This document shows, piece by piece, positions 40,432-45,908 of a stretch of DNA of 64,000 bases. The stretch comes from Sinorhizobium americanum (GTDB lineage: Bacteria > Pseudomonadota > Alphaproteobacteria > Rhizobiales > Rhizobiaceae): assembly GCF_001651855.1 (NCBI RefSeq), contig NZ_LNQC01000047.1, positions 62,001 to 126,000 on the forward strand, written 5' to 3'. The translations under genes and the position numbers were made by a program. Under the pieces are notes generated by a model that ran no database searches, had not been told where the DNA came from, and saw only the letters and a list, made by a program, of their open reading frames with translations. Numbering within the stretch: position 1 is the first letter of the stretch; every line of letters begins with the position of its first letter.

Positions 40432-41985
40432 CTAATCTTCCTCTATATCCGCTGTCGAGCACTCGTAGAGCGTCTCGCCGGTTTCGGCCTCGACGCCGGC
40501 GAGGCTGACCTCATAACCCCACAGATGACGGACATGCCGCAGCGTCGCATCGCGGCTGGACTCCTCGAGAAGGACGCCGTTCTTGACATTGTGCTGCAGC
40601 CGTAGGTGGCGATCACCCAAAAGGTCGACGTCCATGACCTGAATGTCCGGTTGGTTGGCGCCAATGTCGTAGCTTCGAGCAAGCGCCGCCCGGATCGCCT
40701 CGTAACCGCGTTCGTTGTGAATCGAGGCAACCTCGCAATATTTCTCGTCCGCCTCGTCCGACAGCAGGAACAGCCTGAATTTGCGGATCAGCGCTGGGCT
40801 CAGATACTGCAGGATGAAGGACTCGTCGCGGTGGTTTGCCCAGGCATCCAGCAGCGTCTCACGCCAGTTGCCGCTGCCGGCGACGTCGGGAAACCAGTCG
40901 CGGTCTTCGGACGTCGGATCGACGCAGATCCGCTCGATGTCCTGCATCATGGCGAAGCCGAGTGCATAAGGGTTGATCCCGGGAAAGCGCGGATCGTCGA
41001 AGGAGGGCTGGAAGACGACGTTGGTGTGGCTCTGGAGGATCTCCAGCATCGCGCCTTCGGTTATTCTCCCCTGGTCGAAGAGAGTGTTCATGATCGTGTA
41101 GTGAACGAAGGTCGCGCATCCCTCGTTCATCACCTTGGTCTGCCGCTGCGGATAGAAATACTGGGCGATGACGCGGACGATCCGCAGGATTTCGCGCTGC
41201 CAAGGTTCGAGGATCAGGCTGGTCTTCTCGAGAAAGTAGAGCAGATTCTCATCCGGCAGGTTGAGCGCCTTCTTGCGCTCCGAAACGTCGCGCTCGACGG
41301 CGTCCGGATCGCTGCTCTCGCCTGTCGTCGGCAGCGTCCGCCACAGGTCGCTATAGGTCTGCTCCTCGTATTCCAGTCTTTCGCGCATCCGTTCCCGCTC
41401 CTTTTCCGACGACAGCCTCGGCGGCCGGCGGTAGCGGAAGACGCCCTGATCCATGAGCGCATGGGCGGAGTCGAGGATTGCCTCCACGGCGGTCGTCCCG
41501 TAGCGCTCCTCGCATTTGGTGATGTATTTCTTGGCGAACTCCATGTAGCTCAAGATGGCGCTGGCATCGGTCCATTGCCGGAACAGGTAATTGTTCTTGA
41601 AGAAGTGGTTGTGGCCAAAAGCCGCGTGCGCCGTCACCAGGGCCTGCATGGCCATGGTATTTTCTTCCATCAGGTAGGTGATGCAGGGATTGGAGTTGAT
41701 GACCAGCTCATAGGCAAGGCCGCGCCTGCCTCTGCGATAAAGGTGGTCCTCGAAGACGAAGCGCTTTCCGAAGGACCAGTGCTGGTACATCAACGGCATG
41801 CCGACGGAAGAATAGGCGTCGAGCATCTGTTCGGAAGAGATGATCTCGAGCTGGTTCGGATAGACGTCGAGGCCGAGATCATCGAGCGCGACGGTCTCGA
41901 TCGCGTCGTAGGTGCGCGAAAGCGTCTCGAAATTCCAGTCGGAGCCCTGAAACAGCAGGTTTGAAGCCGCACCCTTTTTTGGCAT
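40432..41985 (-). CDS. SpoVR family protein
   Basis: The 517-residue product belongs to the SpoVR family: SDWNFETLSRTYDAIETVALDDLGLDVYPNQLEIISSEQMLDAY, INSNPCITYLMEENTMAMQALVTAHAAFGHNHFFKNNYLF and VMNEGCATFVHYTIMNTLFD. The His/Glu-rich blocks suggest a metal site. SpoVR was named for a sporulation defect in Bacillus, but this organism is not a spore former; in proteobacteria it is paired with PrkA and DUF444 proteins. Here it is the last gene of the prkA-DUF444-spoVR cluster, 15 bp after the DUF444 stop. Confidence 0.95.
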   Translation of the reverse strand: MPKKGAASNLLFQGSDWNFETLSRTYDAIETVALDDLGLDVYPNQLEIISSEQMLDAYSSVGMPLMYQHWSFGKRFVFEDHLYRRGRRGLAYELVINSNPCITYLMEENTMAMQALVTAHAAFGHNHFFKNNYLFRQWTDASAILSYMEFAKKYITKCEERYGTTAVEAILDSAHALMDQGVFRYRRPPRLSSEKERERMRERLEYEEQTYSDLWRTLPTTGESSDPDAVERDVSERKKALNLPDENLLYFLEKTSLILEPWQREILRIVRVIAQYFYPQRQTKVMNEGCATFVHYTIMNTLFDQGRITEGAMLEILQSHTNVVFQPSFDDPRFPGINPYALGFAMMQDIERICVDPTSEDRDWFPDVAGSGNWRETLLDAWANHRDESFILQYLSPALIRKFRLFLLSDEADEKYCEVASIHNERGYEAIRAALARSYDIGANQPDIQVMDVDLLGDRHLRLQHNVKNGVLLEESSRDATLRHVRHLWGYEVSLAGVEAETGETLYECSTADIEED

Positions 41986-42000
41986 CCCGGTCGCCTCTCC

Positions 42001-43314
42001 CTAACGCGCTTGCACAGCCGGCTGTTTGCCGAAGAGTTTCCGGAAGACGGGATAAATGTCCGCAGGCTTGGCGATGCGGGTCATCTGGAAATTCGGCCAT
42101 TCGCCATCGACCGTGCGATAGGCGCGCCAGAGCGAGGTGCCGTTGTCGGTAGTGCCGAAAATCTCCGTCTCGCGCTCGTCGATGATCTCGACATAGGCGT
42201 AATACTGGCAGAGCCGCATTAAATCATCGTGCAGCAGCGACGCGCACCGCTCCGAGTCGCCTGAGATGTTCTCGCCGTCCGAAGCCTGGGCGGCATAGAT
42301 GTTCCATTCGCGGGCCGGATAGCGCTCCCGAATGACCCGGAGCATCTCCTCGAGCGCCGTCGAGACAATCGTGCCGCCGCTCTGCTTGCTGTAGAAGAAG
42401 GTGTTCTCATCCACCTCGCCCGCCTCGTCCGTGTGGCGAATGAAGACGATGTCGATCCTGTCGTAGCGCCGCTTCAGGAAAAGATGCAGCAGCACGAAGA
42501 ACCGCTTCGCAAGGTCCTTCTCGCGTTCGCCCATGGACGCGGAAACATCCATAAGGCAGAACATCACGGCGCTGGCATTCGGCAGCGGCTGCGGCTCGAA
42601 GCGGTTGAAGCGGATGTCGACCGGATCGACATAGGGAATGCGCCGACGCCGCCGTTCCAGCTTTTCGAGCTTCTGGCGCAGTTCCTCGAGGTCCTGCTGG
42701 TGCTTTGCACCGGCCCTGGGCTCCGCCTCCAGCCTGGCGATCTCCTCGGCAATCGCTTCCATTTCCTTTCGCCCCGGCCGGTGGAGGGCGATGCGGCGGC
42801 CGAAGCTGTTGCGCATCGTCCGGCCGACATTGATGTTCGTGGGCGAACCGGTCGCCGCAAAGCCCGCCCGACGCCGCTTGAAGGCGACGGACTCCTTGAG
42901 GTTGAGCTTGACCATGTCGGGAAGTTCCAGGTCCTCGAAGAAGAGGTCGAGCACCTCCTCGCGCGACAGCACGAATTGAAATTCGTCCTCGCTCCGCCCG
43001 GTGCCGGCGCCAGCGCCCGTGGCACCCCCGCCGGAAGCCCGCTTCGGCAGACGATCGCCCGCCGCGAACTCTCGATTGCCGGGCAGGACATATTTCCTTT
43101 CGCCCGTGTCGCCGGCCGGCTGGAAGGTCGGCTCGTTGACGCCGCGGGCAGGCATCGAGACGTTGTGATCAGCGTCGACGTCGGCGATCTTGCCCGACTT
43201 GACCTGTTCCTTGATGGCCCGTTTCAGTTCCTCGCGCGCGCGCTTCAGGAAGCGCTGCCTGTTACCGAGACTCTTGTCCTTCGGGTTAAGGCGGCGGTCG
43301 ATAAAGTTCGGCAT
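42001..43314 (-). CDS. DUF444 (YeaH/YhbH) VWA-like protein
   Basis: The 437-residue product is a DUF444 protein with a von Willebrand A-like fold. The N-terminus (IDRRLNPKDKSLGNRQRFLKRA) is the family's conserved start, and VMFCLMDVSASMGEREKDLAKRFF carries the MIDAS-type DxSxS. YAAQASDGENISGDS continues the metal site. It lies between prkA and spoVR with gaps of 24 and 15 bp, so the three are one operon. In enterobacteria the homologous yeaG-yeaH pair is coexpressed in nutrient stress; a mechanism is not established. Confidence 0.95.
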   Translation of the reverse strand: MPNFIDRRLNPKDKSLGNRQRFLKRAREELKRAIKEQVKSGKIADVDADHNVSMPARGVNEPTFQPAGDTGERKYVLPGNREFAAGDRLPKRASGGGATGAGAGTGRSEDEFQFVLSREEVLDLFFEDLELPDMVKLNLKESVAFKRRRAGFAATGSPTNINVGRTMRNSFGRRIALHRPGRKEMEAIAEEIARLEAEPRAGAKHQQDLEELRQKLEKLERRRRRIPYVDPVDIRFNRFEPQPLPNASAVMFCLMDVSASMGEREKDLAKRFFVLLHLFLKRRYDRIDIVFIRHTDEAGEVDENTFFYSKQSGGTIVSTALEEMLRVIRERYPAREWNIYAAQASDGENISGDSERCASLLHDDLMRLCQYYAYVEIIDERETEIFGTTDNGTSLWRAYRTVDGEWPNFQMTRIAKPADIYPVFRKLFGKQPAVQAR

Positions 43315-43338
43315 ATGCTGCCCCCTGCTAACCGCACC

Positions 43339-45288
43339 TCAGCCCGCCTTGTTGACGCGCATGTACCAGTCGACCAATCGACGCACCTGCCGTTCGGTGT
43401 AGCCGCGCTCTTTCATGCGCTGGACGAATTCGGCATGCTGCTTCTCGGTCGCGCTGTCCTTCTTGGAACCGAAGCTGATCACCGGCAGCAGGTCCTCGAC
43501 CTGACCGAACATGCGCTTCTCGATGACTTCCCTGAGCTTCTCGTAGCTCGTCCAGGAGGGATTGCGCCCATGATTCTTGGCGCGAGCCCGCAGGGTGAAC
43601 TTGACGACCTCGTTGCGGAAGTCCTTCGGGTTGGCAATGCCCGCCGGCTTTTCGATCTGAGACAGCTCACTGTCGAGGATCTTGCGGTTGAGAATCTGCC
43701 CCGTGTCGGGGTCCTTGAAGTCCTGGTCCTCAAGCCATGCGTCGGCATAGGCGATGTAGCGGTCGAAGAGGTTCTGGCCGTATTCGCTGTAGGATTCCAG
43801 ATAGGCTTTCTGGATTTCATGGCCGATGAACTCGGCATAGCGGCTGGCGAGTTCCGACTTGATGAAGTCGAGATAGGCCGCTTCCGTTTCCTTCGCGAAC
43901 TGCTCGCGCTTGATGGCCTGTTCCATGATGTACATCAGGTGGACGGGATCGGCTGAAACCTCCTTCGTATCGTAGTTGAAGGTTTCCGACAGAACCTTGA
44001 ACGCGAAACGCGTGCTGACGCCGGTCATGGCTTCATCGACGCCGGCGGCATCGCGATATTCCTGCACCGAGCGCGCCTTCGGATCGACATCCTTGAGGTT
44101 CTCGCCGTCATAGACACGCATCTTCGTGTAGAGCGACGAGTTCTCGTGGGGGACGAGCCGGGTGGAGACCGTGAAGCGGCTCAGTATCTCCAGCACCTCC
44201 GGCGCGCAAGGATTGTTGAAGAGCTCGCTCTCGCGGAGAAGCTTCTCATAGATCATCTTCTCTTCGGTGACGCGCAGGCAATAGGGAACCTTGACCACCA
44301 AAATGCGGTCGAGGAACGCCTCGTTGTTGCGATTGTTCTTGAACTGCAGCCATTCCGATTCGTTCGAGTGCGCCAGGATCGTGCCCTGATAGGGGAAGGC
44401 ACCGAAGTTTTCCGTGCCATTGTAGCTGCCCTCCTGCGTCGCCGTCAGCAGCGGGTGCAGGACCTTGATCGGAGCCTTGAACATCTCCACGAATTCAAGC
44501 AGGCCCTGCGTCGTGCGGTTCAGGCCGCCGCTATAGGAATAGGCATCCGGGTCCGCCTGGCTGTAGTTTTCCAGCTGGCGGATGTCGACCTTGCCGACCA
44601 GCGAGGAGACGTCCTGGTTGTTCTCGTCGCCGGGCTCCGTCTTGGCGATGCCGATCTGACGCAGGCGCGAGGGGGTCAGCTTGACGACGCTGAATTTCGA
44701 TATGTCGCCTCCGACCTCGTCGAGCCGCTTTGAGGCCCAGGGCGAAATCAGGCCGGTCAGCCGTCGCCTTGCGATACCGTATTTGTCCTCGAGCAGGTCG
44801 GCCATGCGCTCGGGGTGAAACAGGCCCAGGGGCGACTCGAAGACCGGGCTGATCTTGCCGTCGACCATGAGCGTATAGATCGGCCGCTGCTCCATGAGCT
44901 TCTTCAGCCGCTCCGCAAGCGACGACTTACCGCCGCCGACCGGACCGAGCAGGTAGAGAATCTGCTTGCGCTCCTCGAGACCCTGGGCAGCGTAGCGGAA
45001 GTAACCGACGATCCGCTCGATCGTGTCTTCCATGCCGAAGAAATCGGAGAAGGCCGGATAAATTTTGATGGTTCGGTTTGCGAAGATTCGGCCGAGACGC
45101 TCGTCAGCACTGGTATCGACGAGAACCGGCTCTCCAATGGCATCCACCATCCGCTCCTGCGCGGTGGCGTACATGCTCTTGTCGTCGCGACATGCGAGGA
45201 GATATTCCTGTAGACTTATCTCTTCTTGCGCTGCACTCGAATAGATCTCCGAAAAGAGGTCGAAGACGTCAGATTCACTCCTTTGCAT
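43339..45288 (-). CDS. prkA: PrkA family serine protein kinase (YeaG-like AAA+ protein)
   Basis: The 649-residue protein is a PrkA/YeaG homologue: an AAA+ domain with Walker A at residues 115-122 (GPVGGGKS), then NRTTQGLLEFVEMFKAPIKVLHPLL, GTILAHSNESEWLQFKNN and SRFTVSTRLVPHENSSLYTKMRVY. The C-terminal third holds the reported kinase-like region. PrkA has been described as a serine kinase and, more recently, as having protease activity. The ATG at 45288 has a clear Shine-Dalgarno (GGGAGAG); the open frame extends to 45336. An RpoE2-type promoter lies about 70 bp upstream. Confidence 0.96.
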   Translation of the reverse strand: MQRSESDVFDLFSEIYSSAAQEEISLQEYLLACRDDKSMYATAQERMVDAIGEPVLVDTSADERLGRIFANRTIKIYPAFSDFFGMEDTIERIVGYFRYAAQGLEERKQILYLLGPVGGGKSSLAERLKKLMEQRPIYTLMVDGKISPVFESPLGLFHPERMADLLEDKYGIARRRLTGLISPWASKRLDEVGGDISKFSVVKLTPSRLRQIGIAKTEPGDENNQDVSSLVGKVDIRQLENYSQADPDAYSYSGGLNRTTQGLLEFVEMFKAPIKVLHPLLTATQEGSYNGTENFGAFPYQGTILAHSNESEWLQFKNNRNNEAFLDRILVVKVPYCLRVTEEKMIYEKLLRESELFNNPCAPEVLEILSRFTVSTRLVPHENSSLYTKMRVYDGENLKDVDPKARSVQEYRDAAGVDEAMTGVSTRFAFKVLSETFNYDTKEVSADPVHLMYIMEQAIKREQFAKETEAAYLDFIKSELASRYAEFIGHEIQKAYLESYSEYGQNLFDRYIAYADAWLEDQDFKDPDTGQILNRKILDSELSQIEKPAGIANPKDFRNEVVKFTLRARAKNHGRNPSWTSYEKLREVIEKRMFGQVEDLLPVISFGSKKDSATEKQHAEFVQRMKERGYTERQVRRLVDWYMRVNKAG

Positions 45289-45355
45289 CGTGCTCTCCCG
45301 CGGCAAGCCGCTTGGTTGAACCGGGATCGCTGCCAATCGGCTATTGCTTCAAGTG

Positions 45356-45380
45356 AACGGTTTCCTGACTTCAAAGTTCC
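45356..45380 (-). promoter_or_regulatory. RpoE2/EcfG-type promoter of the prkA operon
   Basis: Read on the minus strand, GGAAC (45380-45376) and CGTT (45359-45356) are 16 bp apart, exactly the general-stress sigma consensus. The expected start site near 45349 gives a 5' UTR of about 60 nt before the prkA ATG at 45288. The match is exact in all nine consensus positions. Confidence 0.7.
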
Positions 45381-45782
45381 TTCTTAACCGACACTGCAAG
45401 CGAATGCCGAAGCAGCAGCTCACGACGACATCCGCACATCAGTTCGGGACCGATCGATCGGCGCCTTAATCCAAGGATCGAGGACGCCATTCCGCAAGAC
45501 TCGTCGCTCTGTCACCCCATCATGCCGGCGCTTCTCGCGAATCCGTCATGACAATAGGAGCATAACCAAAACCCGGCCTTTCGCCGACTTTTTTTTTAGG
45601 ATTTCACGAATTTAGCGGTAAACAATGTTGTGTAGGGACGGTGACATCGTGAGTAGCCTAGCCGGGCGCTGTCTAACGATTCCGGGAGGGAAACGACGCC
45701 CGGAGGGAGCAGTGCGCGCGGCGGCGATTTGGCAACCGAGCCTGTCGATCGCCTCCGGCGGCGAATGCCTGAAAAATAAAAA
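45381..45782. other. Intergenic region, no gene recognised
   Basis: Between the prkA promoter and the tRNA-Leu terminator lie 400 bp without a gene I can support. A short GC hairpin (CGGC/GCCG at 45574-45586) followed by ten Ts near 45589-45598 could be a weak plus-strand terminator. A CGGGCG/CGCCCG inverted repeat lies near 45663-45714. Confidence 0.45.
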
Positions 45783-45823: not shown

Positions 45824-45908
45824 TGGTGCGGTCGAGAAGACTCGAACTTCCACGGGTTGCCCCACAGCGACCTCAACGCTGCGCGTCTACCAATTCCGCC
45901 ACGACCGC
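45824..45908 (-). tRNA. tRNA-Leu (anticodon GAG)
   Basis: The 85-nt gene folds as a class II tRNA. Acceptor arms GCGGTCG/CGACCGC pair perfectly, the anticodon stem CAGCG/CGCTG closes the loop TTGAGGT (anticodon GAG, reading CUC/CUU), the T-loop is TTCGAGT and there is a variable arm of leucine type. The 3' CCA is encoded (45824-45826 on the minus strand). A terminator follows. Confidence 0.96.

Follow-up and report, generated by a model that had tools for sequence, protein, structure and literature searches.

A conserved EcfG/RpoE2-type promoter box ahead of a probable general-stress prkA-DUF444-spoVR operon in Sinorhizobium americanum

The gene trio encoding PrkA (YeaG type), a DUF444 protein (YeaH type), and SpoVR (YcgB type) is widespread but poorly understood biochemically and is, according to reports, starvation induced in several bacteria. 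That YcgB, YeaH, and YeaG are conserved together was already published in 2007. In Escherichia coli and Salmonella, which have yeaG-yeaH and a separate ycgB, the literature describes induction by stress and starvation (PMC3188799, PMC4664914) and control via NtrC/sigma-54 and RpoS (PMC3188799, PMC4664914, PMC3844500). In Rhizobium etli, a prkA-vWA-spoVR operon was demonstrated by reverse transcription-PCR and depends on RpoN1 and (p)ppGpp (PMC3188799). A 64,000-bp stretch of the Sinorhizobium americanum genome (contig NZ_LNQC01000047.1, positions 62,001 to 126,000; here called the window) contains the same three families in the R. etli gene order, with SpoVR encoded by the third gene of the cluster, unlike in the enterobacteria, and with an EcfG-type promoter box in place of the control published there. 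Taken as a whole, this cluster is probably a general-stress operon of the EcfG/RpoE2 type whose products form an AAA+/VWA remodelling unit. A preliminary description made from the DNA alone was correct in what it observed, and its regulatory reading of this known operon is well supported; the lineage distinction described below is useful, and the mechanism is offered as a proposal.

The three genes are arranged head to tail on the minus strand with intergenic gaps of 24 and 15 bp, in agreement with the layout given in the preliminary description. The features, all within the window, are as follows.

45356 to 45380, minus strand: putative EcfG/RpoE2-type promoter box, GGAAC-N16-CGTT, conserved among relatives
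45289 to 45351, minus strand: predicted prkA mRNA 5' leader, which contains a block conserved genus-wide and the ribosome-binding sequence GGGAGAG
43339 to 45288, minus strand: prkA (YeaG-type AAA+ protein), 649 amino acids from ATG, with a Walker A motif (GPVGGGKS) at residue 115
42001 to 43314, minus strand: DUF444 gene (YeaH type), 437 amino acids, with a VWA domain at about residues 246 to 431 and the metal ion-dependent adhesion site (MIDAS) residues D256, S258, S260, T315, and D346
40432 to 41985, minus strand: SpoVR gene (YcgB type), 517 amino acids

All three families passed curated cut-offs, in order and on one strand. The prkA product matched the AAA_PrkA profile (1.1e-182) and the PrkA C-terminal domain (8.3e-73), and its neighbors matched DUF444 (5.4e-161) and SpoVR (3.7e-168); the NCBIfam models PRK15455 (PrkA family), PRK05325 (DUF444), and PRK11767 (SpoVR) were all above cut-off. 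The start of prkA was placed at the ATG at 45288, which follows GGGAGAG and is common to 29 same-genus aligned loci; the open reading frame list had TTG at 45336. The closest relatives with organism titles were Ensifer/Sinorhizobium strains, whose PrkA proteins were 99 to 98% identical to that of the window.

The exact box reported earlier was found at its position. The sequence GGAACTTTGAAGTCAGGAAACCGTT reads GGAAC-N16-CGTT at 45380 to 45356 on the minus strand and ends 67 bp 5' of the prkA ATG (about 70 bp had been claimed), so that GGAAC and CGTT fall within the spacing of 16 to 17 looked for ahead of a first gene. It equals the motif published for R. etli EcfG1 (PMC3892343), as expected of promoters in EcfG/RpoE2 regulons. 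Transcription would be expected to start at about 45351 to 45344, which is 5 to 12 nucleotides past the -10 element by the distance rule of PMC3616915. Within the window, GGAAC-N15-18-CGTT matched 5 times against 1.97 expected, a count reached in 3 of 100 shuffles. Across the whole genome, the exact box was not enriched (GGAAC-N16-17-CGTT, 153 matches versus 145 for the reversed-pattern control), and for this reason a single exact match was not accepted as proof. The same figure is what speaks for coincidence, that is, for a chance promoter match at an operon outside the general stress regulon; this explanation is nevertheless scarcely credible, because the boxes were conserved among relatives while their spacers had diverged. 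The match thus exceeds chance only moderately in isolation and clearly once the comparative evidence is added.

Conservation was assessed chiefly within lineage A, defined by PrkA at least 85% identical to that of the window. In the alignment of the same genus, own locus included, the exact box was present in 20/29 loci and GGAAC-N16-AGTT occupied the identical place in the other 9/29. These loci represent 29 of 32 prkA-bearing genomes (L051 was omitted, and G004 and G007 were not included); the L051 genome reappears, with an exact box, as L116 in the set of loci with organism titles. The exact box was found in 11/32 loci from other genera, a further 15/32 having the looser form GGAAC-N16-18-GTT at about -69 to -97. 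Among the titled loci, a set that shares some genomes with the other collections, 21/80 were exact and 47/80 loose, and the pooled rows gave 59/160 exact and 130/160 loose. Because lineage-A rows overlap between collections, 66 non-redundant rows were used for comparison with 200 shuffles. The exact box occurred in 21/66 rows (shuffle mean, 0.065; maximum, 1) and the loose form in 55/66 (shuffle mean, 0.35; maximum, 3). Spacer columns were nearly uninformative while the boxes persisted, and the exact pair, with 21 matches, ranked first of 360 permuted pairs, the runner-up (7 matches) being the overlapping shift GGAAC/GTTC. One locus anchored at a non-start codon (L185) was scored as a miss, and L093, which was 79% identical and boxless in the scanned region, was tallied with lineage B (see below), although the tree places it within lineage A.

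Two further conserved elements were observed near the box. A second block, CTGCTTCGG(C/T)AT, at 45404 to 45415 (minus strand), begins some 35 bp 5' of the -35 box and was kept in 29/29 same-genus aligned loci despite diverged flanks; it is possibly a regulator site. The 5' leader (45289 to 45345, minus strand) contains the block GGCAGCGATCCCG and, beside the ribosome-binding sequence, a stretch resembling a hairpin (GCGGC/GCCGC), and leaders resembling this one were present in some other lineage-A genera.

Genes for the regulatory switch that would act on such a box were also present. The own genome has two NepR loci, one of which (L192) has as neighbors genes for a protein of the PhyR family (above the NCBIfam cut-off at 4.3e-116) and for an extracytoplasmic function (ECF) sigma factor, named EcfG here from its position beside nepR and phyR. 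The stretch separating phyR from nepR carries two exact boxes, one per strand. Twenty nepR matches were obtained in 14 other genomes; of the 15 inspected, 14 had GGAAC-N16-18-GTT nearby, mostly with CGTT. In the Aminobacter-like genomes G239 and G104, AGTT was found ahead of nepR and likewise ahead of prkA. The box ahead of prkA is, on these comparative grounds, very probably a real EcfG/RpoE2-type promoter that drives the trio after the PhyR-NepR switch. The earlier assignment of the cluster to the general stress regulon was therefore supported in part, by a box kept over several genera with diverged spacers and by the encoded NepR, PhyR, and ECF sigma factor.

Several results weigh against that assignment. 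Neither box form was found in 6/32 loci from other genera, in 12/80 titled loci (including three from Phyllobacterium and several from Rhizobium), or in 12/19 additional lineage-A rows drawn from the genus that includes the R. etli-like genome G230, the remaining 7/19 being exact. The loose pattern was picked post hoc, after the alignments had been viewed. The -10 element ahead of prkA is AGTT or GGTT in Mesorhizobium, and three Mesorhizobium-like genomes use CGTT for nepR/phyR and AGTT for prkA, which may mean weaker control of prkA in them. Finally, the nepR box had CGTT in one of two Bosea genomes and TGTT in the other.

The strongest published counterpoint comes from R. etli, in which prkA was strongly RpoN1 dependent and a prkA deletion mutant showed no clear phenotype under stress (PMC3188799). 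The position of that operon was approached through relatives. The forward primer published for cloning in work on R. etli prkA matched 1/394 genomes, G230, at 0.8 kb beyond the prkA end; the reverse primer (allowing up to 4 mismatches) and a XhoI site were not found in the 4.6-kb stretch of G230. Identity of G230 with strain CFN42 was rejected on these absences, and G230 was taken as a relative of CFN42. The PrkA lineage to which G230 belongs is about 72% identical to PrkA of the window and has no exact EcfG box. In the genus of G230, PrkA was 89 to 92% identical to that of the window in 20/99 genomes and 71 to 74% identical in 79/99, with both versions in none (1 of 100 genomes, incomplete, gave no PrkA match). 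The two prkA operon versions are mutually exclusive in this genus, which points to replacement or to differential loss. Forty of the 79 lineage-B genomes and 19 of the 20 lineage-A genomes of this genus were sampled, the twentieth (L069) having been included already. In the PrkA tree, which was midpoint rooted without an outside outgroup, lineage A comprised 47 rows (support, 100/99), R. etli-like L105 fell within a clade of 12 (100/98), and a third clade had 5 rows; lineage B is shorthand for the clades of 12 and 5.

The exact box was absent from lineage-B rows (0/58; non-redundant, 0/25). The loose pattern matched 13/58 of them (non-redundant, 2/25), and all 13 matches were variants of one sequence. 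That sequence, near-invariant GGAACGCCGTAGCCATCTCGATGGTT with small variants, lies at about -66 to -72 of prkA in L103, L105, and 11 of the loci L195 to L234, and may be a variant EcfG site. Since the CFN42 relative G230 falls outside lineage A, the PrkA lineage of the R. etli operon is probably another one, and the RpoN1 dependence and lack of stress phenotype probably describe that lineage. They would then not directly contradict the claim for Sinorhizobium, and the split is a possible reason why results from R. etli need not hold there.

Sigma-54 (RpoN) could instead be the main driver under nitrogen or starvation signals, with the GGAAC box secondary. Besides the R. etli dependence, this alternative draws on the E. 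coli yeaGH promoter region (PMC4664914) and on a sigma-54 binding site at Salmonella yeaG, where, on the other hand, the promoter reporter was equally active without rpoN (PMC3844500). GG-N10-GC candidates recur in 10 Mesorhizobium loci (-31/-32) and in 4 Rhizobium loci (-217 to -219), and some R. etli-like loci have a sigma-54 candidate about 38 bp ahead of prkA. In the genus of the window, however, TGG[CT]-N8-[TC]GC matched 0/29 upstream regions of 450 bp, and no sigma-54 site was common to the 80 titled loci (best two sites per locus), although the weight matrix used may have missed weak sites. The R. etli-like operon of G230 moreover sits in the other PrkA clade. Sigma-54 as the main driver of the operon in the window is accordingly improbable, and EcfG/RpoE2-type control is preferred.

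No report assigning the operon to an EcfG regulon was found in literature searches that paired prkA or SpoVR with RpoE2, EcfG, or PhyR. Neither prkA nor SpoVR is named in the main texts of PMC3616915, PMC6180224, PMC3892343, and PMC8877191; their supplementary tables may nevertheless contain the promoter, identified by locus tag. Phenotypes reported elsewhere differ in direction. An E. coli yeaG mutant survived long nitrogen starvation less well (PMC4664914). In Mesorhizobium alhagi, high salt lowered prkA and a prkA deletion made the strain more tolerant, which argues against a simple protective role (PMC5041497). The M. alhagi PrkA has 649 amino acids (PMC7020829), and a published M. alhagi primer encodes MRVNKAG, the ending found in 30/32 other-genus lineage-A loci. 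The primer frame was read by eye, and the search pattern caught the lineage-B ending in 1/17 loci; the M. alhagi protein looks like one of lineage A.

The claim that the three products form one functional unit was examined by co-occurrence. PrkA, DUF444, and SpoVR were confined to an identical 43/150 Pseudomonadota genomes (26 of 94 genera). PrkA adjoins DUF444 in 43/43 of these, and SpoVR adjoins them in 40/43. PrkA was counted at an E value of 4e-98 or better; the raw tally was 139/150 genomes (84 over cut-off), of which all but 43 represented matches of about 50 to 70 residues in long frames and were set aside, these being presumably Lon-like. DUF444 and SpoVR each matched in the same 4/14 control genomes. 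The trio was in order in 50/50 and 79/80 loci, the lone miss stopping at a contig end. This all-or-none occurrence bears out part of the earlier claim, and the trio products are in all likelihood one functional unit. In E. coli, mutants without yeaG, without yeaH, and without either gene showed the same behavior (PMC4664914). A strict unit fits less well with S. Typhimurium, in which antimicrobial peptide resistance was linked to yeaH and not to yeaG (PMC2375023).

That phenotype also fits an alternative in which the genes share regulation and history but make no single machine, PrkA being a serine kinase with separate targets. PrkA is called a serine kinase in older literature (PMC3188799), and a sequence search of solved structures gave none matching DUF444 or SpoVR beyond chance. 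This alternative is nonetheless unlikely: the trio occurs on an exact all-or-none basis even in the 3/43 genomes with SpoVR apart, and for Bacillus anthracis PrkA, kinase activity went undetected and the kinase domain reportedly lacks a P-loop (PMC13001217). One functional unit remains the preferred reading.

The domain evidence is consistent with a unit built around an AAA+ ATPase and a VWA protein. The VWA-like character ascribed earlier to DUF444 held: the MIDAS signature DxSxS-T-D is present, its five residues were invariant in 24/24 sequences, and the C-terminal half of the structural model (residues ~246 to 431) matched VWA domains, including 7n1o (Z, 12.8; 145 residues; 3.0 A) and Rea1-MIDAS 6qta (Z, 11.3; 171 residues; 4.7 A). 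Pfam VWA_2 matched the sequence weakly and below cut-off (E value, 0.042). PrkA has a remote solved relative, PDB 9xip (E value, 1.8e-49), and its weak sequence neighbors were mostly Lon proteases. No MoxR-named model was among its profile matches, in which AAA_PrkA and PrkA were far above cut-off; AAA_5 was marginal (22.3 bits against a cut-off of 22, residues 112 to 143 only). B. anthracis PrkA was assigned to AAA+ clade III from its predicted structure and formed oligomers upon addition of ATP (PMC13001217).

In the mechanism proposed, uptake of NepR by PhyR would free the EcfG/RpoE2 sigma factor, which would start transcription at GGAAC-N16-CGTT ahead of prkA, so that the trio is made together. 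PrkA would form an ATPase ring, the MIDAS-bearing VWA domain of DUF444 would couple this ring to a client protein, and ATP would be spent on remodelling the client when growth stops, SpoVR being client or effector. By analogy with described AAA+/VWA pairs, the protein part of this scheme has about an even chance of being correct. Like the MoxR pairs NorQ-NorD, RavA-ViaA, and CbbQ-CbbO, the trio has an ATPase gene adjoining a VWA gene with a DxSxS-T-D MIDAS, and in NorQ-NorD, the role ascribed to this motif is to bind the client as the AAA+ ring operates (PMC9976466). Unlike them, the trio would be built on an ATPase that matches its own families (AAA_PrkA and PrkA C-terminal domain), apparently of PrkA type and not of MoxR type, and a third gene, SpoVR, always accompanies PrkA-DUF444 in the 150 genomes. 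Weighing against the scheme, the DUF444 model was poor overall (predicted local distance difference test [pLDDT], 57.5), the SpoVR model was unusable (pLDDT, 47.7), and B. anthracis PrkA, as purified, was a monomer until ATP was added and showed no detectable protease activity (PMC13001217). A broader idea is put forward tentatively: the trio may be a separate, non-MoxR AAA+/VWA remodelling machine with SpoVR as obligate, dedicated partner. In each lineage, it would have been rewired to whatever sigma factor governs starvation or stress, namely, EcfG for lineage A of the rhizobia and their relatives, RpoN for R. etli, and RpoS plus RpoN for enterobacteria. With a deletable sigma factor, a lineage rule for the box, and an AAA+/VWA model that names its MIDAS residues, regulation and mechanism alike can be tested in a soil bacterium that is harmless.

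Some minor observations concern the proteins and the surrounding DNA. The remote solved PrkA relative is represented by 30 chains over three entries (9xip, 9xiq, and 9xir), and PADLOC gave one weak PrkA match (E value, 0.0074). DUF444 was split into two frame pieces in G564 and G639, as was SpoVR in G585, and SpoVR of L176 was alignable over residues 1 to 290 only; these are possibly broken copies or sequencing errors. Upstream of the cluster and on the same strand lies a tRNA-Leu (gag) gene at 45908 to 45824, the sole tRNA gene in the window.

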